Assembly: GCF_003051105.1 (NCBI RefSeq)
Contig: NZ_QAOO01000005.1
Location: 62,001 to 126,000, forward strand
From: Nitrosomonas nitrosa
Lineage (GTDB): Bacteria > Pseudomonadota > Gammaproteobacteria > Burkholderiales > Nitrosomonadaceae
Direction of reading: 5' to 3'
DNA: 64,000 nt
Shown one piece after another: positions 47,703-62,276 of this stretch. How positions within the stretch are numbered: the stretch's first letter is position 1; each line of letters opens with the position of its first letter. A model generated the notes under the pieces. It worked only from the letters and a program-made list of their open reading frames with translations, was not told the DNA's origin and made no database searches. Made by a program: the position numbers and the translations under genes.

Positions 47703-49520
47703 TTAGTGTGCCGGTATTTGTTGGAGATATTCACGCCATCCGCCAAAATGACTGATATCCAATGCATTGCCGATAGCATAGCGCTCACAGAGAAAGCCTT
47801 TAACCATTTCGCCGTCCGCCAGCGTGAGCGTGCCGATACTCAATGGTGCCGGGATACCCGTGACAAAACTGCCGAGTTCACGCGTTGGCAATTCCCAAAC
47901 TTCCACTTTGATTGCAACACCTTGTTCATGATGATCGACTCGAATTAATCCAGGACGTTGCGGCGGATTACCGGGCAGTGCATAAAGGCGATAGTTTGCC
48001 GATGTTGTTGTGCTTTTTACCAGCCGGCCTTGACGGCAGGTCAATTGCTCATTCAAAGGTAAGCCTGATAAATGTGCACCGCAAACAGCAATACGTACGT
48101 GATTCGGGTCAGGTAATTCAGGAAAATCATTATTTATAGGGAAAGCAATACCGGTTGCACCTAAAGGGAGGCAATAGGCCTGTTGCAAAGCGTGTGCAAG
48201 GCGCAAGAGCGGCTCGTCCTGATGAGCCGGGGCAGCCAGCGTGATGCCAAAAGGTAATCCGTCATTCTGAAAACCCACTGGTATAGCGATGGCAGCATAG
48301 TCAAGTAGATTCATGAAATTGGTGTAATAACCCAGATGCGTGTTAAGACGAATGGGTTCTTTTAGCATTGCCGGGATGGGATAAATTGTTCCCGCGGTGG
48401 GCGTGACGAGGCAATCAGCATCCCTCCAGATTTCATCTGCGTGCTGCTTGATACTGCGTAATTGATAGAGCCCTTTATAGGCATCCGCTGCTGAATAGCA
48501 TTTCGCTTTAGCAATAATTTCACGAACCGGGGCAACGATTTGATCGCTTTGCGATTCATAAAACGACTGAATGGCCGCATAGCGTTCGGCGACCCAGGGG
48601 CCTTCGTATAATAAGCGGGCTGCTTCGAGAAAAGGCTCAAAATCGATTTCAATGGCTTTTCCACCCAGTGTTTCAAGTTGCCTAACCGCTTCGGTAAATA
48701 ATCGCTCACTTTCTTGGTTACCAAAAAACTGCAGATGTTGCTTGCGCGGAATAGCAAAGCGAAAATGGGAGGCTGCAGCAAAGTCAAAACCGTAGGCTTC
48801 TTTTTGCCTGGAATAGATATCTTCAGTATCGTAGCCTGCAGAAATCATCAGGACGCGTGCGGCGTCGGCGGCAGTAAAAGCAAAAATCGACACAGTATCA
48901 AGGGAACGGCAAGCAGGTACCACGCCTCGAGTCGAAATCCACCCCTTGGTGGGTTTGTAGCCGATCAAATTATTGAATGCAGCGGGCACTCTACCGGAGC
49001 CTGCCGTATCGGTGCCGAGGCTGAAGCATACCCAGCCTTTGGCAACCGCAACAGCTGAGCCTGAGCTCGAGCCACCGGAAATGTAATCAGGGTTGAAAGC
49101 GTTGCGGCAAACACCATAAGGTGATCGTGTGCCATTCAAACCAGTGGCAAACTGATCGAGATTGGTTTTACCGATAGGAATGGCACCTGCCTTTATCAGT
49201 TTTTGCACAACCATGGCACTGTGAGTTGGCGTGTAGGTATAGGCCGGGCAAGCTGCTGTGGTTGGTAATTCGGCAAGATCGATATTGTCTTTGATGGCAA
49301 AAGGAATGCCATATAGCGGGAGCGATGACATGTCCTTTACTTCTACCTGGCGAGCATAATAGCGCAGTGATTCAAGCGGGAGTACGGAAATCCAGACATG
49401 GTTCGGATCGTTCTGAATTTCCGCATGAATCATCTCAACCAATCTTGTGGGGGCTATTTCTCCGCTGGCGTAGCGCTGCAACAAAGAAGAAATATCTCCA
49501 AGCGGGATAAATTTTGCCAT
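47703..49520 (-). CDS. atzF: Allophanate hydrolase
   Basis: The 605-residue enzyme hydrolyses allophanate to two ammonia and two CO2. The N-terminal amidase-signature domain has the Lys-Ser-Ser triad at K77 (AIKDNIDL), S151 (GGSSSGSA) and S175 (DTAGSGRVPA). The C-terminal domain of about 130 residues (IAVCGAHLSGLPLNEQL onward) is the AtzF-type domain that follows the amidase domain. It is 9 bp downstream of the carboxylase gene and is the last gene of the guanidine operon. The same enzyme also serves true urea carboxylases, so it does not by itself identify the substrate. Confidence 0.95.
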   Translation of the reverse strand: MAKFIPLGDISSLLQRYASGEIAPTRLVEMIHAEIQNDPNHVWISVLPLESLRYYARQVEVKDMSSLPLYGIPFAIKDNIDLAELPTTAACPAYTYTPTHSAMVVQKLIKAGAIPIGKTNLDQFATGLNGTRSPYGVCRNAFNPDYISGGSSSGSAVAVAKGWVCFSLGTDTAGSGRVPAAFNNLIGYKPTKGWISTRGVVPACRSLDTVSIFAFTAADAARVLMISAGYDTEDIYSRQKEAYGFDFAAASHFRFAIPRKQHLQFFGNQESERLFTEAVRQLETLGGKAIEIDFEPFLEAARLLYEGPWVAERYAAIQSFYESQSDQIVAPVREIIAKAKCYSAADAYKGLYQLRSIKQHADEIWRDADCLVTPTAGTIYPIPAMLKEPIRLNTHLGYYTNFMNLLDYAAIAIPVGFQNDGLPFGITLAAPAHQDEPLLRLAHALQQAYCLPLGATGIAFPINNDFPELPDPNHVRIAVCGAHLSGLPLNEQLTCRQGRLVKSTTTSANYRLYALPGNPPQRPGLIRVDHHEQGVAIKVEVWELPTRELGSFVTGIPAPLSIGTLTLADGEMVKGFLCERYAIGNALDISHFGGWREYLQQIPAH

Positions 49521-49529
49521 AGTGTCACC

Positions 49530-52500
49530 TCATTCCTGAACGATGACTAATACTTGTCCAGCGGATACGTAGCTACCTTGTTTGCAGAGCAGTTGGCGCA
49601 CTGTCCCCGTCACAGGCGAATCAACCGGAAATTCCATTTTCATGGATTCGATCAGAATGAGCGGTTTTCCGGCTTCAACCCGATCGCCTTCCTTGACGAA
49701 TAACTTCCAGACCGTGCCCGTTACCTGACAACTGACAGCTTGTGCACCTGTCGGCAAATCAAGCTCGCTTTGTGTATCGGCTTCTTCCAATATGTCTTCA
49801 TCAATGTATTGGGCTAGATTGTTTTCCGCCCAACGTTGGCGTTCAGCTTCAAAGGCAGCTTGCTGTCTTGCTTTGAATGCATTGATACTGGACGCGTGCT
49901 GTTGCAGAAAGGTATTGTATTGCCGCAGATTGAGAACCGTTTCTTCCGTACGTAGCTTGAAGTGCCCAGAAATGAAATCCTTACGCAGTTCGAGCAGTTC
50001 GCTTTCGCTTACGGGATAAAAACGGATCTGATCAAAGAAGCGCAATAACCAGGGTTTACCCTCCTTAAAATCAGCCGTTTGGCGATAACGATTCCACATT
50101 TGTACGGTACGGCCGACAAACTGATAGCCGCCAGGGCCTTCCATTCCATAGATGCAGAGATAAGCGCCACCGATACCCACCGCATTCTCCGGTGTCCAGG
50201 TACGTGCTGGATTGTACTTGGTCGTAACAAGACGGTGACGGGGATCGAGCGGTGTTGCAACCGGTGCACCTAGATAAACATCACCCAGTCCCATGACCAG
50301 ATAGCGAGCTTCAAACACAATGCGCTGAACATCTTCGATAGATTCCAAGCCGTTGATGCGGCGTATGAACTCAATATTGCTTGGGCACCAGGGTGCATCA
50401 CTGCGAACGGATTGTATGTATTTCTCGATGGCGAGACGTGTGGCGGCATCATCCCACGATAGCGGGAGATGGATGATACGGGTGGGTACCTCCATGTCAT
50501 CGATCAGAGGAAGTAGGCGTTCCCCCTCAATCAAGATATCCATTAATCGCGTGCGTGCTAATCGGCACGAATCAAAATGAATTTGCAGTGAGCGAATGCC
50601 AGGAGTCAGATCCAGAATGCCATCCAATTCGCCATCGTCGATGCGTTGTTGGAGCCAAGTCATTAAAGCATGGACACGAAAGCGCAAATTGAGATCGAGT
50701 ACAGGCGGCCCGTACTCGATCAAGAGATATTTATCGCCCGATTGACGATAAACCACTTGCACTTGGCCTGCTTGCTCAGGAATACGATGCAGAATGGGAT
50801 CAATTTCTTTTCTTGAAGGCGGGTGAATTGAGCCGCTGCTATCAATATGAAGATGCTGGATGAGTGAATCTTGTTGCTTTTCTAATGCAAGTGCGTCTTC
50901 TATCGATATTGGATAAAACCGGACACTATCTCCTGGCTTAAGTTGGCCAATTTTCCATAATTCAGCCTGAACGATGGTCGCTGGACACACAAAGCCTCCC
51001 AGGCTGGGGCCGTCCGGTCCCAGGATGATGGGCATATCCCCAGTAAAATCGACTGCACCAATCGCATACGCATTGTCATGAATATTGGAGGGGTGTAAAC
51101 CCGCTTCGCCGCCATCGCTTCTCGCCCATTTAGGTTTAGGGCCAATCAGGCGCACGCCTGTGCGACTGGAGTTATGATGGACTCTCCATTCCGCAGTAAA
51201 AAATTGCTCGATATCCGTTTTAGTAAAAAAATCAGGTGCACCATGAGGGCCATACAATACAGCGATATTCCAACGGTCGGTATAATGAGGAATCCACTCC
51301 TGGGGTAAGTGCTGTGAAAGAGGGGGCTTGGTGGGTTGCACGGGCTGCACATGTAAAACATCGCCAGCACGTAGAACACGGCCTGCATGTCCGCCGAACT
51401 GACCGAGCGTGAAAGTAGCTTTACTTCCAAGATAATCAGGCACTAGAAAGCCGCCTTGTATCGCCAAATAGACTCGGCTACCTACTTGTTTGATTTTGCC
51501 AAATTGGAGTAACGCACCCGCTCTGACGAAGTGGGATTGCCACTGGGATAAAGGTTCGCTGTCCAATGAAACCTCGATAGGCGCGCCACAGATAGCGATA
51601 ATACTGTCGCAATTGAAACGAAGTGTCGGTCCTGCCAAAGTGATTTCGAGCCCTGCGCTACCTTCGGCATTGCCTACCAACCGGTTAGCGAAGCGGAACG
51701 CCAAATGATCCATCGGCCCAGATGGCGGAACACCTACATTCCAGTAGCCAATCCGCCCCGGATAATCCTGTATCGTCGTTTGGACGCCCGCATTCAGCAC
51801 ATCGATGCTGTACGCTTGATAATGGAATCCATTGAGGAATTGCGTGCTTGGTTGGCCACTGCGGAAAGCGGTACTGGCTAAAATCTGTTTCAGATAAGCC
51901 AAGTTGGTTTCGATGCCATGAAGCGAGGTGTGATCGAGCGCTGTCAGCAGATCGGCAATCGCTTTTTCTCGGGTGGGCGCATGCACGATGATTTTTGCCA
52001 GCATGGGATCATAAAATGCTGAGACCTCAACGCCTTGGACGATCCAGGTTTCTACGCGGGCTGTCGCAGGAAAATCGACCGCAGTTAATGTGCCGCTGGA
52101 AGGTTGAAAGTCTTTTGCCGGATTTTCAGCATAAACCCTTGCTTGAATGGAGACACCTCTTGGCTGGATCGTGAAAGTGTCGAGCGGTGGGAGATCGCCT
52201 GCCGCCTGCCGCACCATCCATTCTACCAAATCGATGCCCGTGACTTCTTCGGTTACGCCATGTTCGACCTGCAGACGGGTATTAACTTCGAGAAAATAAA
52301 ACTGACCATTAGCCGCATCATAAATATACTCGACAGTACCTGCAGATTGGTAGCTGATCGCTTGTCCCAGGCGTACGGCAGTTTCCAGAAGGGATTCACG
52401 CAGTACTGCAGGAAGATTGGGGGCAGGGGTTTCTTCGATCACTTTCTGATTACGCCGTTGCATCGAGCAATCGCGTTCACCTAATGCGACGACCTGACCT

Positions 52501-53150
52501 TTTCCGTCGCCAAAAATCTGCACTTCGATATGCCGTGCGCGGTCGACATATTTTTCCAGGAACAAACCTGCATCTTTGAAATTATTTTGTGCAAGCGTTT
52601 TAACCGATTCATAGGCGCTGATTAGTTCGTCTTGATTCCAGCAAAGACGCATACCGATACCCCCGCCACCGGCAGTGCTTTTCAGCATCACGGGATAGCC
52701 AATATGCTTAGCTTGATGGCAGGCAACGTCGAGGCTTTCCAGCAAATCAGTGCCGGGTAGCAGCGGTACCCGGTTTTCCAATGCTAAAGCGCGGGCCGTA
52801 TGTTTCAGACCAAAAGCGCGCATTTGTTGCGGGGTAGGGCCGATAAAACATATTCCATGAGCAGCACATTGTTCTGCAAAATCGGCTTTCTCACTGAGGA
52901 AACCATAACCTGGATGAATAGCTTGCGCACCAGCGCGTTGTGCGATTTCCAATATTTTATCCGTGCGCAAATAACTCTCCGCTGCAAGACCACTGCCAAT
53001 ACAATAAGCCTCATCTGCCTCGGTTACATGCCGCGATAAGGCATCAGCCTCGGTATAAACAGCTACGCTTGTTACCTTCATTCGGCGCAGAGTACGGATA
53101 ATGCGACTGGCAATTGCGCCACGATTGGCTATCAGCACTTTTTTAAACAT
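49530..53150 (-). CDS. Guanidine (urea-carboxylase-like) biotin carboxylase
   Basis: The 1206-residue protein has a biotin carboxylase domain (about 1-450; KVLIANRGAIASRIIRTLR, MLKSTAGGGGIGMR), KipI/KipA-like AHS2 and AHS1 carboxyltransferase domains (about 460-1010) and a C-terminal biotinyl domain with K1171 in ESMKME. It uses ATP and bicarbonate. Family members are usually annotated urea carboxylase, but those under guanidine-I riboswitches and beside two DUF1989 genes have been shown to carboxylate guanidine in preference to urea. All these context features are present here. One Asp/Asn position in the carboxyltransferase site is reported to separate the two specificities; I could not place it without an alignment. 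It lies 26 bp after the DUF1989 pair and 9 bp before atzF. Confidence 0.9.
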   Translation of the reverse strand: MFKKVLIANRGAIASRIIRTLRRMKVTSVAVYTEADALSRHVTEADEAYCIGSGLAAESYLRTDKILEIAQRAGAQAIHPGYGFLSEKADFAEQCAAHGICFIGPTPQQMRAFGLKHTARALALENRVPLLPGTDLLESLDVACHQAKHIGYPVMLKSTAGGGGIGMRLCWNQDELISAYESVKTLAQNNFKDAGLFLEKYVDRARHIEVQIFGDGKGQVVALGERDCSMQRRNQKVIEETPAPNLPAVLRESLLETAVRLGQAISYQSAGTVEYIYDAANGQFYFLEVNTRLQVEHGVTEEVTGIDLVEWMVRQAAGDLPPLDTFTIQPRGVSIQARVYAENPAKDFQPSSGTLTAVDFPATARVETWIVQGVEVSAFYDPMLAKIIVHAPTREKAIADLLTALDHTSLHGIETNLAYLKQILASTAFRSGQPSTQFLNGFHYQAYSIDVLNAGVQTTIQDYPGRIGYWNVGVPPSGPMDHLAFRFANRLVGNAEGSAGLEITLAGPTLRFNCDSIIAICGAPIEVSLDSEPLSQWQSHFVRAGALLQFGKIKQVGSRVYLAIQGGFLVPDYLGSKATFTLGQFGGHAGRVLRAGDVLHVQPVQPTKPPLSQHLPQEWIPHYTDRWNIAVLYGPHGAPDFFTKTDIEQFFTAEWRVHHNSSRTGVRLIGPKPKWARSDGGEAGLHPSNIHDNAYAIGAVDFTGDMPIILGPDGPSLGGFVCPATIVQAELWKIGQLKPGDSVRFYPISIEDALALEKQQDSLIQHLHIDSSGSIHPPSRKEIDPILHRIPEQAGQVQVVYRQSGDKYLLIEYGPPVLDLNLRFRVHALMTWLQQRIDDGELDGILDLTPGIRSLQIHFDSCRLARTRLMDILIEGERLLPLIDDMEVPTRIIHLPLSWDDAATRLAIEKYIQSVRSDAPWCPSNIEFIRRINGLESIEDVQRIVFEARYLVMGLGDVYLGAPVATPLDPRHRLVTTKYNPARTWTPENAVGIGGAYLCIYGMEGPGGYQFVGRTVQMWNRYRQTADFKEGKPWLLRFFDQIRFYPVSESELLELRKDFISGHFKLRTEETVLNLRQYNTFLQQHASSINAFKARQQAAFEAERQRWAENNLAQYIDEDILEEADTQSELDLPTGAQAVSCQVTGTVWKLFVKEGDRVEAGKPLILIESMKMEFPVDSPVTGTVRQLLCKQGSYVSAGQVLVIVQE

Positions 53151-53176
53151 CGTTTACTCCTTTACGAGATAAGCCA

Positions 53177-53848
53177 TCAAGTGGTTTGTGTATCCCAAAC
53201 CAATAAGCGGATCGGAGTTGGATTGTAGGCATTGCAGGGATTGTTCAGTTGCGGGCAATTCGAGATCAAAACCAATACATCCATCTCTGCACGCATTTCG
53301 ACATATTTGCCGGGTGCCGAAATTCCATCCACAAATTCTAGCCCCCCCTCTTCGGTGACAGGCACGTTCATAAAGAAATTGATGTTACTCGGTATATCGC
53401 GCTTGCTCATGTCAAGTAGTTCGCACGCAGCATCATGCGCTAAGGCATGCAAGAAATTATCTCGGCAACTGTGCATGGGGTATTTTTCCAATGCGTAGCG
53501 TACCGTGTTACTTTCTGCGGCGCAGGCTCCTCCTAGCGTGTCATGACGTCCGCAGGTATCAGCAACAATGGTAAGCATCCTATTGCCCAAGTTCGAGTAA
53601 AGGACACTGCCTGTTGTCAGGTAAAGGTTGTTCTGAGCGCGTATGGTATCCGTTACACTATAGCGTTCGAGTGCATGATGCGCATTGAAAAAAAGTGTGT
53701 CGACCGCTTGATTGCCTTCCAGATCAACGATACGGAATGTCTGCCCGCGTTTGACGAATTTGGTCCAGGGTTCACCTGCTGCACAAATCTCATCGATGAT
53801 GGCTGTATCAGGGGTGAGTTTGCTTTCGATGAGTTGAGATGTGTTCAT
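53177..53848 (-). CDS. Carboxyguanidine deiminase subunit (DUF1989, UAAP2 type)
   Basis: The 223-residue protein belongs to DUF1989, long labelled urea carboxylase-associated protein 2. It contains [42 protein letters not shown] and [14 protein letters not shown], with Cys and His residues suitable for metal or catalysis. Together with the adjacent paralogue it forms the deiminase that converts carboxyguanidine to allophanate and ammonia. The start is the ATG at 53848, overlapping the upstream stop in ATGA and preceded by GGAGG; a longer frame by five codons exists. This subunit corresponds to CgdA or CgdB; which name applies was not decided. Confidence 0.88.
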
Positions 53849-54576
53849 AGCGCGCCTCCGCAAGGATGATAAAGTCGGTGGGTGTTATGTAATCCGCGTG
53901 CATTCTCTGCGATCTGCTTGCATTCTGAAACAGCATGTATTGGTGTGACAAACGCTGCCAGATGAATATCGCCCGGTTGATAGGTGGGACGCGTATCGAG
54001 AGGATGGGGCGCTGCAGTCAGAACAACCAATGTATCCATCTCAAAACTGAGATCGACGTAATCGCCTACTTTGCTATGATCGCAGTGAAATGTGAGTTCA
54101 CCCGCAGCACTAGCTATGACTTTACTGAAAAAATTGATATTGGCCACGATATCACGCATACCCAGCCCCCACTTGCCAAGTTCAATCAGCATACCATCCA
54201 AGCCACTGCGATACATCTGATTGCGATGCTCTTGATAGCGGGCAACGCCATATTTTTGCTGTATCAGTTTGCTGTCGCTCAGTCCGCACGCCGTATCATG
54301 CCAGCCCACCGTATCATCAGTAATACAACAAAATATCCGCCCCATATCGGAAAAACAGGCATGCCCCTTGGTCAGGCGGAAGGTATGCTGCGCTTTGAGG
54401 GTGTCTGCCATATTGTAGCGCTCCAGTTTTTCTTCCTGGTTATAGAACAATACGGCGGCATTGGCACCGCCACTGGTGTCCGTTAACCGCAGGGTTAGGC
54501 CGCGTCGCAGGATACCGGACCAGTGGCATCCACCGGGAATAGATTCTTCCCATAGAAATACGTTGTTGTGATTCAT
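53845..54576 (-). CDS. Carboxyguanidine deiminase subunit (DUF1989, UAAP1 type)
   Basis: The 243-residue protein is a paralogue of its downstream neighbour. It shares the DUF1989 layout: [45 protein letters not shown] and [15 protein letters not shown]. It was formerly called urea carboxylase-associated protein 1. It overlaps the permease stop by 4 bp (ATGA) and its own stop overlaps the next start by 4 bp, so the three genes are translationally coupled. The C-terminal tail of about 40 residues is longer than in the paralogue. Confidence 0.88.
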
Positions 54577-56003
54577 TTATTTCTCCTTATCAGAATACTC
54601 AATGTCGTCGCAGTTAAGATAACACTCAATACAAGGGGAACTGCCCAGATTTGCCACCAAGGTGCATCGGGTGAGGTTAAATAGGTACGTGGCCAAGCAA
54701 TGTTGATGAGTTCGAAGAGTGACCAAGCAAAAGCGATAATATTGATGATCAATCCCCATATTCCCAACTTCAGTTCACCCAAAGCAGGGTCCCAGCGACC
54801 GGTAAGCCGCGTGTATAAGCCAACCCCCGTAGTCATGGAAAACATGGCATAGAGACCGCCAGTTCCAAAGGCAATGATGGTTGCAACTGCTTGATCATTG
54901 AGCCCGAACAATAACCCCATACCAGCTAGAAATACCGTGAATAGAATCGCATTGTGGGGTGCTTTTGAAGCCGTTACATGACTGAGTATCGACGGCATGT
55001 TCCCTTCACGCGCCATGGAGAATACGATGCGGGAGGTATATTTGACTACGGATGCGCCGCAAGCCAAAAAAGCCACGACAACGATTATCAGAAACGGCTT
55101 CTCGATCCAGCTGCCGAAATGCGTTGTTACCAGTGGTGTAATAGGATCAAATGTTGCGCTGGTTTTCGCCAGGGTATCATGGTCGAACGATAATATCAGT
55201 GCTGAGGAATTGAAAACGACGACGGTGCCGACCGCACCGAGTGCAAAAAAAATGGCCCGCGGTACCATACGCTTGGGTTGATGCGTTTCTTCCGATGTTG
55301 TGGAACAAGCATCAAATCCAATAAAGGCCCACCCGGCAATCGCTAGTGCCGCTAGAAAAGCTGAAAGTTTGTCGGGTGCCGTACCACTACCCAGATGCTG
55401 GAATAACTCGGAGAAGGGGTGTTCCCTGAAGAAAAAGAAAAGCAGCAAGGCGATGCCGAATGATCCGATGATTTCGGCGTAAACACCAAGTGCAATAATC
55501 GACTTAAAGACATTAACATGGGCGAGATTGAGCAGCATGCAAATCAAGAGGAAAATGGCGCCCCAGAACACCATCATAATGCCTGTCTCACTTGGGGAGT
55601 CGAACAAAATGGCGAGCCAGATCCCCCCTGTGTAAGCAGTGGTGGTTAACATGGCGATGGTTGAACAAACATAAATTGCGCCTGCATACTGGCCAGTGAT
55701 CGTTCCGCCAAGTTGACGTGCCCATTTGTAAGCGCCTCCTGCAATCGGAAATTGGGAGGATAATTCGGCATAAACGGTTGCAACCAGTAACTGCATGATC
55801 AAGCAGATTACCAAGGCGGCGAACCAGCCACCCCCGGTTACATTGGTTTGCACGCCGACGATAGCATAAAGCCCGACGACGGGAGAAACCACCGCGAACC
55901 CGAGTGTAAAGCTATTCCAAACCCCCATACTGCGATTAAGTATATCGGGATCGGCCGATTTCATTTCAGTTGTAAAACTCTTGGGATTATGAGTGGAAGA
56001 CAT
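54573..56003 (-). CDS. APC-family permease, probable guanidine importer
   Basis: The 476-residue protein has about 12 membrane helices typical of the amino acid-polyamine-cation superfamily (N-terminal SFTLGFAVVSPVVGLYAIVG, then GGAYKWARQLGG). It is placed first among the enzymes of a guanidine-riboswitch operon and is translationally coupled to the deiminase genes, which points to uptake of guanidine or a related cation. Transport substrate is inferred from context only. GAGG lies 7 nt before the ATG. A CTGGCC/GGCCAG hairpin (56051-56072 region) precedes it in the leader. Confidence 0.87.
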   Translation of the reverse strand: MSSTHNPKSFTTEMKSADPDILNRSMGVWNSFTLGFAVVSPVVGLYAIVGVQTNVTGGGWFAALVICLIMQLLVATVYAELSSQFPIAGGAYKWARQLGGTITGQYAGAIYVCSTIAMLTTTAYTGGIWLAILFDSPSETGIMMVFWGAIFLLICMLLNLAHVNVFKSIIALGVYAEIIGSFGIALLLFFFFREHPFSELFQHLGSGTAPDKLSAFLAALAIAGWAFIGFDACSTTSEETHQPKRMVPRAIFFALGAVGTVVVFNSSALILSFDHDTLAKTSATFDPITPLVTTHFGSWIEKPFLIIVVVAFLACGASVVKYTSRIVFSMAREGNMPSILSHVTASKAPHNAILFTVFLAGMGLLFGLNDQAVATIIAFGTGGLYAMFSMTTGVGLYTRLTGRWDPALGELKLGIWGLIINIIAFAWSLFELINIAWPRTYLTSPDAPWWQIWAVPLVLSVILTATTLSILIRRNK

Positions 56004-56098
56004 AACTTGCCTCGAAAATAGTGTGAAAAATGATTCAACCTAAGTCGAAACTGGCCGCAAATTGAGGGCCAGTAGACGATCGATCAAGCCAAATCCAG

Positions 56099-56296
56099 CT
56101 ATATAAAGCCAGCCATATATTGGCTATCGGGATAGCAATCTTGCGAGGGATGAGGGTGAATCAAGAAACGGGAATTTTTGCCCGATAGCTTGATGAAGCC
56201 ATTGGATTCAAAAGCTAACTGTGGTGATGCCGCTGAATTTACCTGAACAAGACCGGAACGGCAGCGAAGCAATAAGGGCAAGATAGATGAAAACAT
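56099..56296 (-). CDS. Possible 65-aa leader protein in guanidine operon
   Basis: An ATG at 56296 is preceded by AAAAGGAG at 8 nt, the best ribosome site in the leader, and opens a 65-codon frame ending at 56099, 95 bp before the permease. The predicted peptide is mildly hydrophobic at the N-terminus (MFSSILPLLLRC), contains two Cys, and ends near HPHPSQDCYPDSQY. I recognise no family. It lies between the riboswitch and the permease, so it would be the first translated product controlled by guanidine. It could be a real small protein, a leader peptide, or chance; the strong ribosome site favours translation. Confidence 0.45.
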   Translation of the reverse strand: MFSSILPLLLRCRSGLVQVNSAASPQLAFESNGFIKLSGKNSRFLIHPHPSQDCYPDSQYMAGFI

Positions 56297-56360
56297 AACG
56301 AAATCTCCTTTTATCATCAGGAAAAGCAACGAGAGTCGTAATGTGTTTAAACATTACGTA

Positions 56361-56475
56361 ATCTCCCGGGCTTTTATCCCTCCGTGGAGCTTCGTCATGG
56401 TCGAAGCCAGAAACTCTCGGACCAGTCACTTTTCTTGTAATTCTTATAAGAAAAGCCGGAACCCTAGTTTGCTAT
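56361..56475 (-). promoter_or_regulatory. Guanidine-I (ykkC) riboswitch
   Basis: On the minus strand the conserved ykkC blocks occur in order: CTAGGGTTCCG, then a CTTTTCTT/AAGAAAAG stem, GACTGGTCCGAGAG, ACGGAGGGATAAAAGCCC, and GGGAGA. These are the consensus elements of the guanidine-I aptamer class. It precedes the permease operon. Downstream, a CGTAATG/CATTACG hairpin and an AAAAGGAG ribosome site could form the expression platform; there is no terminator-like T-tract before the first ATG, so translational control is more likely than transcription termination. Confidence 0.95.
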
Positions 56476-56481
56476 TACATT

Positions 56482-56503
56482 GGTTATATCGACTGATATA
56501 ACC
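56482..56503. promoter_or_regulatory. Perfect dyad at the riboswitch promoter
   Basis: GGTTATATC and GATATAACC form a perfect 9-bp inverted repeat with a 4-nt spacer, immediately upstream of the aptamer. The aptamer-proximal half contains TATAAC on the minus strand, a plausible -10 whose start site would fall at about 56475, at the aptamer's 5' edge. A regulator bound here could control the operon in addition to the riboswitch. Confidence 0.5.
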
Positions 56504-56835
56504 CAGTGACGCCTCTCAATAGCTAATTAAACAATCTAACTACTCATACTTATCTAAGAAACGATTTTGGAGACAAGCTAACATAACTTTTATAGAAAGA
56601 CAAATATATTTCTTAGTGCAAAGTCGAAAAAAGTCGATCGAACATGGCGCATCCCAGTGCTCAATCCTAGAAGCTAAACGATGAAGATGGCTAGAAAATA
56701 GGGTGTTATTCCCACTTTGATGCTGGTTGATTTACCTTATAGTGTTAGCTATTGATAAGCCTAATTTAGTCTAGAAGTGGAAGTGCAAAATTGCTGAACT
56801 TGGTGAGTTGATATTAAATGTGACGAGGCCCTTAG

Positions 56836-56864
56836 CCCCTACCATCTGTGGTAGGGGTTTTTTT
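56836..56864 (+). terminator. Strong plus-strand terminator with no gene in front
   Basis: CCCCTACCA and TGGTAGGGG form a perfect 9-bp stem with a TCTG loop, followed by seven T residues. This is the clearest intrinsic terminator in the window. On the minus strand no T-tract follows, so it does not serve pyrE. There is no plus-strand gene upstream, which suggests an unannotated RNA. Confidence 0.85.
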
Positions 56865-56898
56865 CGATGCCTAGCCATTCACTGAGAAAATGCCGAAT

Positions 56899-57540
56899 CT
56901 AAGCGACACCATATTGAGCGCGGTAGCGCTCTATCGCTGCTAAGTTCTGTGCCATACTTTTTTGAGCGGCGAGATAATCGATTATATTGTCTAGATTGAT
57001 AATACTGATAACGGGAATTTCGTATGTTTGCTCGACTTCTTGTATGGCAGATAACTGACCCAGGCCTTTTTCCATTCGGTCTAGCGCAACTACAACAGCA
57101 CAGGGAATCGCTTTAGCGGCTTGAATCAGTGCCACAGACTCTTTTACCGAGGTGCCTGCAGTAATGACATCATCGATGATCAATACACGGCCTGCCAGTG
57201 GTGATCCGACGGTGTTACCACCTTCCCCATGATCCTTGATTTCCTTGCGGTTGAAGCAAAAAGGGTAATTATGACCCGATTCGGCAAGTGCAATCGCAGT
57301 CGCGCTGACCAGTGGAATACCCTTGTAAGCAGGGCCAAACAACATACTAAACGGAATCTGCGCAGCCAGTATGGCTTTCGCGTAGAATTGCCCCAATTTG
57401 CGTAATGAGCCGCCATCATTGAATAGCCCAGCGTTAAAAAAATAAGGCGAACGGCGTCCGGCTTTAGTGATGAATTCACCAAAACGCAGTACATTACATT
57501 CAATGGCAAACTCAATAAAAGCTTGTTTAAAATCTGACAT
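56899..57540 (-). CDS. pyrE: Orotate phosphoribosyltransferase
   Basis: The 213-residue enzyme makes OMP from orotate and [33 protein letters not shown] and the PRPP motif [14 protein letters not shown] are all present. The ATG at 57540 is chosen; an in-frame TTG two codons upstream is the alternative. It is divergent from xthA with only 17 bp between the start codons. The next pathway enzyme, pyrF, is also in the window but unlinked. Confidence 0.97.
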
Positions 57541-61489: not shown

Positions 61490-62276
61490 GAATATATCTA
61501 AAAATCTAGGAAATTATTTTTATAAGGAAGATGACCGAACGCTTATTGCCGAGAAGCATTATATCGCCAAAAACAGGGAGGAGGCCTGTACCTACTCAAA
61601 ACCTGATTATTTGGCAGCGCACTAAAAGTCAATTGTTGCAAATTTTGAACTAACCCATTGATTTAGCATCGATTGGCCAGCGCCGATTGATGGAATGATA
61701 AAGAATTTCTGCCGCTCTCATGGGAAATACTAGCATAGAATAAACAAATTGGCTGTGCAGGTTACAGTTGATCCAAACTCCCCTATTCGTGTGCAAACTC
61801 AGCCGATAAAGATGATACTAGACTGTCTGAGACGGATCTACTGCGGACGAGCCTGCCAGGTCGGATTTCCCGATCCTTATCGTTAAATAGAACGACTATT
61901 CGCCGCAAATGATCAAAAAATCCAGCTCAACCAGACTCACCCTCGCTACGATCGCTATTCTCGGACAATCTCCTAGTCATGAGTACATCGTATCGTTCTT
62001 GAGTTATTAACCCGGATCGAATTTATGCCCGATTGACAAAGAAATGCGCTTGTAATGAAAAGGAAAAGGCCGAGATGGTTTAGAGCGCATGACTTTCAAT
62101 CTTATTCGCTATTATCTTGCAGTTCGTGTCAGAGAGTCATGTTTTAATCCGAAACCGTTGTAACAGCAGTGGGTAACTTTTTATTTTGCATTATCCTGTG
62201 GCATTCTCTGTAATGCTGTGCAGTTTTTCGATATATCGATAATTTTTGTTTCTATAGTGTAAGGATGTTTGACACC
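61490..62276. other. 787-bp gene-free region upstream of putA and metX
   Basis: No frame here has both a ribosome site and a recognisable product. 61800-62010 is richer in GC than its surroundings and contains an AATAG/CTATT inverted repeat and, on the minus strand, an interrupted frame (with SGLITQERYDVLMTRRLSE and, past a stop, AGFFDHLRRIVVLFND). This looks like a decayed gene or a dispersed repeat rather than an active one. The region must also contain the divergent metX and putA promoters. Confidence 0.45.
62228..62239. promoter_or_regulatory. 12-bp palindrome before putA
   Basis: TCGATATATCGA is a perfect palindrome, 37 bp before the putA ATG. A TATAGT -10-like sequence follows shortly after. 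It may bind a repressor; PutA itself represses put genes only in forms with a ribbon-helix-helix domain, which this protein lacks at its start. Confidence 0.35.

Follow-up and report, generated by a model that had tools for sequence, protein, structure and literature searches.

A predicted guanidine-utilisation operon in Nitrosomonas nitrosa, behind a guanidine-I riboswitch that may act on translation and open a short leader reading frame

The DNA considered here (the window) is a stretch of 64,000 nucleotides (nt) of Nitrosomonas nitrosa, taken from positions 62,001 to 126,000 of contig NZ_QAOO01000005.1 in a 3.42-Mb assembly of 85 contigs (GCF_003051105.1). On its minus strand, reading downward from position 56478, lie a guanidine-I riboswitch aptamer, a permease gene, two genes for DUF1989 proteins, a carboxylase gene and an allophanate hydrolase gene, in that order. 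These elements had been recognised in an original prediction made from the letters of the DNA, and covariance-model and profile matches recovered every one of them. The aptamer (56361..56478) is a full-length member of RF00442, matching positions 1-107 of 107 in cmscan with 84.2 bits (E 1.5e-13; gathering score 63), and it is the sole guanidine-I match in the genome.

The first gene encodes an APC-superfamily permease, a predicted guanidine importer (54573..56003; PF13520, AA_permease_2, 5e-39), whose top NCBIfam match is TIGR03428 with a score far below the cut-off. The two DUF1989 proteins (PF09347) are the predicted subunits of a carboxyguanidine deiminase, UAAP1 at 53845..54576 (TIGR03425, 327 bits) and UAAP2 at 53177..53848 (TIGR03424, 349 bits). 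Each exceeds the cut-off of its own model, so that two distinct subunits are present as expected of this enzyme, whose activity is predicted. The UAAP2 gene was taken to start at the ATG at 53848, where the list of open reading frames (ORFs) had a TTG at 53863. With these coordinates, the 4-bp overlaps that had been described between permease and DUF1989 genes and between the two DUF1989 genes are both present. The fourth gene (49530..53150) encodes a putative guanidine carboxylase of 1206 residues, named urea carboxylase in the profile library (TIGR02712, 1965.7 bits), with biotin carboxylase, carboxyltransferase and biotin carrier domains. Its biotinyl lysine, K1171, is where the original prediction placed it. 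The last gene (47703..49520) encodes an allophanate hydrolase with its C-terminal domain (TIGR02713, 808.6 bits, over the cut-off; PF21986).

Guanidine and urea carboxylases are told apart by an Asp at the position of residue 1330 of the Kluyveromyces lactis enzyme, together with an Asp at 1584 (passages of PMC11410670). In the window carboxylase, D701 aligns to N1330 of the K. lactis urea carboxylase, whose structure is solved (5i8i), and D957 lies in a GLGD motif at the position of D1584. The Asn expected of a urea carboxylase is absent, and the alignment that the original prediction had proposed at this Asp/Asn position is consistent with its claim that guanidine is preferred over urea. Among the 98 family loci with a carboxylase match, some of which share a genome, 97 carry Asp at both sites and the remaining one carries Asp at its single covered site. 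The expectation that automated annotation would label the operon as urea use was likewise correct; NCBIfam names the enzyme 'urea carboxylase', genome papers on ammonia-oxidising bacteria (AOB) put such genes under urea use (passages of PMC4714114 and PMC11135946), and one of these papers (PMC11135946), as late as 2024, still presents them as a way for AOB to use urea.

These library names are what would favour a genuine urea carboxylase operon of the urea amidolyase type that has come by chance to lie behind a guanidine riboswitch. Such an origin is extremely improbable, given D701 in place of Asn, the retained D957, the guanidine-I aptamer preceding the operon and the urease already encoded in the genome. 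Additionally, strain Is79, which lacks urease and is comparable by the names of its urea carboxylase and allophanate hydrolase genes, formed no nitrite from urea according to unpublished work cited in a passage of PMC3764937. A guanidinase route in the same genome was also considered and set aside; the single PF00491 site is an ORF that best matches arginase, below the cut-off, as judged by family match.

Overall, the operon and its pathway as a whole are, on sequence evidence, highly likely to serve guanidine utilisation in a Nitrosomonas. Guanidine would be imported by the APC permease and carboxylated by the carboxylase at the expense of ATP. The DUF1989 pair would deiminate carboxylated guanidine to allophanate, which the allophanate hydrolase would split, giving three NH3 and CO2 per guanidine, and the riboswitch would switch on the genes in the presence of guanidine. 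The steps of the individual enzymes are predicted from homology and signature residues. The NH3 released would be open to oxidation by ammonia monooxygenase (AMO) and hydroxylamine oxidoreductase (HAO). That the host is an ammonia oxidiser, as had been proposed, is borne out by its AMO (PF02461, 1.1e-116) and an HAO-type multihaem protein (PF13447, 1.4e-155); urease alpha is also encoded.

Several comparisons place the locus with N. communis and its kin. By best-segment identity, the nearest named records to the carboxylase are those of Nitrosomonas sp. Nm33 and Nm132 (86%), followed by isolate NEU_AOB_2, a metagenome-assembled genome named N. ureae and strain Nm84 (85%), and then by N. communis Nm44 and strain Nm34 (84%). 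A tree built from 33 carboxyltransferase domains groups the window with genomes G010 and G080 (support 100/98), and its leader falls in an eight-member cluster with those of G010, G011, G012, G041, G076, G077 and G080. The guanidine operon of ammonia oxidisers is already published in substance, and the window adds one more member. Of 145 betaproteobacterial AOB genomes, 135 were reported to have guanidine genes, all of the carboxylase type; most ammonia oxidisers that carry such genes also have an APC permease in that region, and Figure 1c of that paper draws the Nitrosospira multiformis locus under a guanidine-I riboswitch (passages of PMC11410670). The loci described there share with the window the riboswitch, the permease, the carboxyguanidine deiminase, the guanidine carboxylase with its signature residues and the allophanate hydrolase. 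In contrast to the window genome, N. communis Nm2 is described as lacking urease (passages of PMC11410670 and PMC4714114).

The idea that guanidine feeds energy metabolism stands in part. AMO and HAO are present, and three of five AOB with the gene set, including N. communis Nm2, degraded part of the guanidine to nitrite, only with ammonium; none of the five used 50 uM guanidine alone (passages of PMC11410670). An energy role for guanidine in AOB is thus plausible, and the published test, in which no AOB used guanidine alone, speaks against its use as a sole substrate. The same results, together with the ATP cost of the pathway, agree with an operon kept for detoxification or nitrogen supply while ammonia carries energy metabolism. 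This explanation comes close to an even chance and is compatible with the interpretation preferred here, although the first gene of the operon is a predicted import permease and three AOB did turn a fraction of the guanidine into nitrite when given ammonium.

The gap between the aptamer and the permease start, which the original prediction passed over, is 357 nt and contains a 65-codon ORF with its own Shine-Dalgarno (SD) sequence. Specifically, the SD AAGGAG (56310-56305) and the ATG at 56296 form a riboswitch-proximal start region (56294..56310) that is predicted to be sequestered without guanidine. The ORF that begins there (56099..56296) has no Pfam match, and its stop ends at 56099, 95 nt before the permease ATG at 56003. 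Upstream, the 3' strand of aptamer helix P2 (AUGACGAAGCUCC, 56386..56398) is predicted from the minimum-energy fold to pair either inside P2 or with the SD and AUG. A hairpin CGGGAG...CUCUCG (56330..56368), which is seen in the fold and the alignment, would compete with aptamer helix P3 and is called anti-P3 here.

The riboswitch occurs in 101 of 125 genomes of the family Nitrosomonadaceae, and 110 leaders have a gene hit (four more have none). In 52 of these, the first strong SD past the aptamer starts the permease directly, 60-117 nt down. In 51, including the window, the riboswitch-proximal start opens something else and the later start belongs to the permease (43), the carboxylase (7) or the allophanate hydrolase (1). 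The remaining seven lack a start by the rule used and were left out of the pairing test. Permease starts of the relatives were chosen by script, in frame and near the alignment start with a preference for an SD; for loci L105 and L015 the script picked positions that are no start codon, and the 'differs' label of L041 is an artefact of the start rule. The start context is similar in both kinds of leader, with the consensus AAAGGAGACUUCGUUAUG over 40 sequences.

A translational ON switch is predicted because the SD/AUG region is complementary to the 3' strand of P2, with compensatory changes. Without ligand, AUGACGAAGCUCC would pair with GGAGAUUUCGUUAU and hide the first SD and AUG; guanidine would stabilise P2 and free them. 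The minimum-energy fold of the window leader has the start region paired with the P2 3' strand, and this duplex is worth -18.9 kcal/mol against an average of -4.7 for the family control segments. The pairing test covered 51 distinct leaders of both kinds, drawn from the 103 family leaders with a start by rule. The mean duplex energy was -16.3 kcal/mol when each leader was paired with its own partner and -14.05 when the partners were permuted, with 0 of 5000 permutations as good; the segment just downstream of the SD/AUG gave -4.7. When the SD core was omitted, the spacer alone gave -7.6 for own and -6.0 for permuted partners (again 0 of 5000) and -2.7 for the control. With the aptamer included in the fold, the region from SD to AUG became less open in 43 of 51 leaders (the mean openness fell from 0.48 to 0.27), compared with 27 of 51 for the control segment (0.51 to 0.48). 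Additionally, double changes keep the pairing in L017 (UAGUGA/UCACUA) and, with one G-U pair, in L021 (UGAUGAG/CUUAUCA), where the common form is UAACGA/UCGUUA. Based on these models, it is moderately probable that the switch acts on translation.

Several observations weigh against this conclusion. In 8 of the 51 leaders the start is not less open with the aptamer, and the pairing is mostly family-wide, with a gain of about 2 kcal/mol for the leader's own partner in a permutation that ignores shared ancestry. A 2025 review describes guanidine-I as 'usually' a transcriptional switch (PMC12186494), and the class is described as permitting transcription only with guanidine (a passage of PMC11410670). 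The P3-breaking hairpin is conserved as well, and the operon strand has two weak, overlapping hairpins that resemble terminators around the point where the leader ORF stops (56126-56095); these are pattern matches only, with stems of six pairs, three of them G-C. All but the first two points would suit an ordinary transcriptional ON switch, in which the anti-P3 hairpin or a weak terminator downstream ends transcription without guanidine, and the ORF and the complementarity of P2 to the SD are by-products. Four terminator-like patterns in a 1-kb stretch, counting both strands, against 0.9 expected, and the longer T-runs seen by eye after the hairpin in some Burkholderiales outside the family point the same way. 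Such a switch is nevertheless considered unlikely as the whole explanation, since the pairing of P2 with the SD beats every permutation, also in the spacer alone, for which a terminator would have no need; the two modes could also act together.

An intrinsic terminator at the anti-P3 hairpin was considered and dropped because the terminator scan did not flag it. The same pattern scan found no sigma-70-like promoter in 55900-56900. A terminator-like hairpin of 11 pairs, with its T-tail on the plus strand, lies upstream of the operon leader at 56834-56859. Outside the family, the pairing of P2 with the SD is not specific; at least 23 outside loci were listed, 12 of them readable, and the control paired equally well or better in 5 of the 12.

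In the window the freed start would open the 65-codon leader ORF rather than the permease. Translation of this ORF would keep ribosomes on the leader, which would help expression of the permease downstream; that the ORF aids the permease in this way is a tentative proposal. Leader ORFs were compared in 42 leaders that precede the permease or the hydrolase, grouped at 60% identity into 16 clusters that are partly dependent. Two of the 51 long leaders were too short for stop counts, and the count by cluster also omits the seven carboxylase leaders. In 14 of the 16 clusters, the riboswitch-proximal frame contains fewer stops than the other two frames do on average (two-sided sign test, 0.004), and the stops counted over the 41 permease leaders are 34 for this frame compared with 107 and 95 for the others. 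In 25 of the 42 leaders, no more than 12 nt separate the ORF stop from the next start, and in 14 of the 42, all Nitrosospira-like or N. europaea-like, the stop ends on the tenth base of the permease gene. The leader frame thus seems to be kept open while its sequence is nearly free.

Other features of the ORF count against a function. The distances between stop and start carry no chance level, and stops are not depleted in the seven leaders that precede a divergent carboxylase gene (17 in this frame compared with 9 and 13 in the other two). Codon positions 1, 2 and 3 have nearly equal numbers of substitutions (153/155/152 over 931/929/924 sites, in 14 partly overlapping pairs), 5 of 11 indels have lengths that would shift the frame, and dN/dS ranges from 0.28 to 1.32 (0.28-0.89 in the cluster of the window), a range that has no frame control. 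The window ORF itself neither overlaps nor abuts the permease gene. Because of its 95-nt gap and its unremarkable length (P 0.09), the evidence for a coupled ORF is weaker in the window than in its relatives.

The ORF may be a chance open frame, with the permease start simply lying farther down than in the short-leader relatives, which use the same type of SD directly for the permease. The even substitutions, the frame-shifting indels, the lack of a protein family and the unremarkable length of the window ORF would all be expected of such a frame; the stop-poor frame in 14 of 16 clusters, the frequent closeness to the next start and the preservation of an SD before the ORF would not, and this explanation is judged doubtful. 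A conserved peptide was dropped as a candidate on the even codon-position substitutions, with weak constraint still possible from the dN/dS values. In a Pfam scan of three leader ORFs, those of the window and L034 had no match and that of L036 had a match at chance level (E 0.085). Nor was a conserved gene between riboswitch and permease supported, as tblastn with the window ORF (E 1e-3) hit only its own locus among the loci searched. A Rho-utilisation site was left as an idea; across 49 leaders the 80 nt that follow the start have a pyrimidine-rich composition, with C at 0.30, G at 0.17 and T at 0.34, and C exceeds G in 98% of these leaders, but likewise in 87% of 52 short leaders.

Returning to a leader ORF with a role in expression, the proposal as a whole is that guanidine-I has turned into a translational ON switch in betaproteobacterial AOB. 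Where leaders are long (in N. communis and its kin, including the window, and in the Nitrosospira-like and N. europaea-like groups), the freed start would lead into an ORF of nearly free sequence that is kept open, serving as a landing pad for reinitiation at the guanidine permease or as a shield of the leader from early termination. This combined proposal is put forward tentatively, with less confidence than the translational mode alone. While the window matches guanidine-I (ykkC) riboswitches in its full-length aptamer, it appears to differ from them in an expression platform that, as modelled, sets the P2 strand against the SD/AUG. The ppe2 B12 riboswitch of Mycobacterium tuberculosis also precedes a short ORF, which overlaps the next gene and feeds it mainly by termination-reinitiation (passages of PMC11260477). 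It differs in being an OFF switch with another ligand in another phylum, and the window ORF, unlike those of some relatives, does not overlap the permease. A further likeness is found in the SAM-II metA riboswitch of Sinorhizobium meliloti, whose SD is needed for translation that starts downstream; there the ligand switches expression off, and the second AUG lies 74 nt down in frame (passages of PMC9373788). The switch mode and the leader ORF modelled here may be new. No translational guanidine-I switch or leader ORF of this kind appeared in the titles and abstract openings of the papers listed by the literature searches, and the words leader, terminator and Shine-Dalgarno are all absent from the main text of PMC11410670; a claim that they are unreported is therefore not made. 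If the proposal is correct, AOB would control guanidine use at translation, with a leader ORF contributing, instead of by stopping transcription as is assumed for the class. This would bear on why the AOB of the published test consumed just a part of the guanidine, and did so only when ammonium was present (passages of PMC11410670).

Other arrangements of the riboswitch occur in the family. In the N. europaea-like loci L053, L055, L058, L085 and L092, two guanidine-I riboswitches stand back to back within a few hundred bases of each other, flanked by the permease and the carboxylase on opposite sides; in L055 (genome G017) one of the two is below the gathering score. At L021 (G051), the riboswitch precedes the allophanate hydrolase, and a 69-codon leader ORF has a stop that overlaps the hydrolase start (TAATG).

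The original prediction called the operon complete, which holds for the window and is not general across the family. A carboxylase over the cut-off occurs in 106 family genomes, two of which, G012 and G123, have a partial hydrolase and were left out. Among the other 104, some of them incomplete, allophanate hydrolase is over the cut-off in 48 and was not found in 56. With this patchy distribution, the carboxylase alone is no proof of a route to three ammonia. When 11 genomes were searched with the window hydrolase, G078 gave a true hydrolase. The matches in the other 10 were confined to the amidase part, at about 30%, apart from a separate match to the C-terminal domain in four of these genomes. 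Guanidine carboxylase with neither hydrolase nor the short protein described below occurs in 43 genomes (for example G019, G023, G033 and G074), 26 of which have urease. At L036 (G012; 1671-2959), residues 263-423 of an allophanate hydrolase are unmatched, which probably marks a broken gene in a relative from the cluster of the window.

Thirteen genomes (L235-L247; for example L235:7794-10112), seven of them N. europaea-like and six Nitrosospira-like, encode a relative of the carboxylase of 761-811 codons that has no biotin carboxylase domain and retains the biotin lysine and both Asp residues. These short carboxylases form one clade (100/100), and their genes come after the DUF1989 pair in all 11 loci that reach that far. 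None of the 13 genomes has allophanate hydrolase as well. In the Nitrosospira-like genus, the short protein occurs in 6 genomes and the hydrolase in 16, and no genome has both or neither (Fisher 1.3e-5, a value that ignores kinship). As a guess, the short carboxylase might take the carboxyl group back from allophanate and leave urea.

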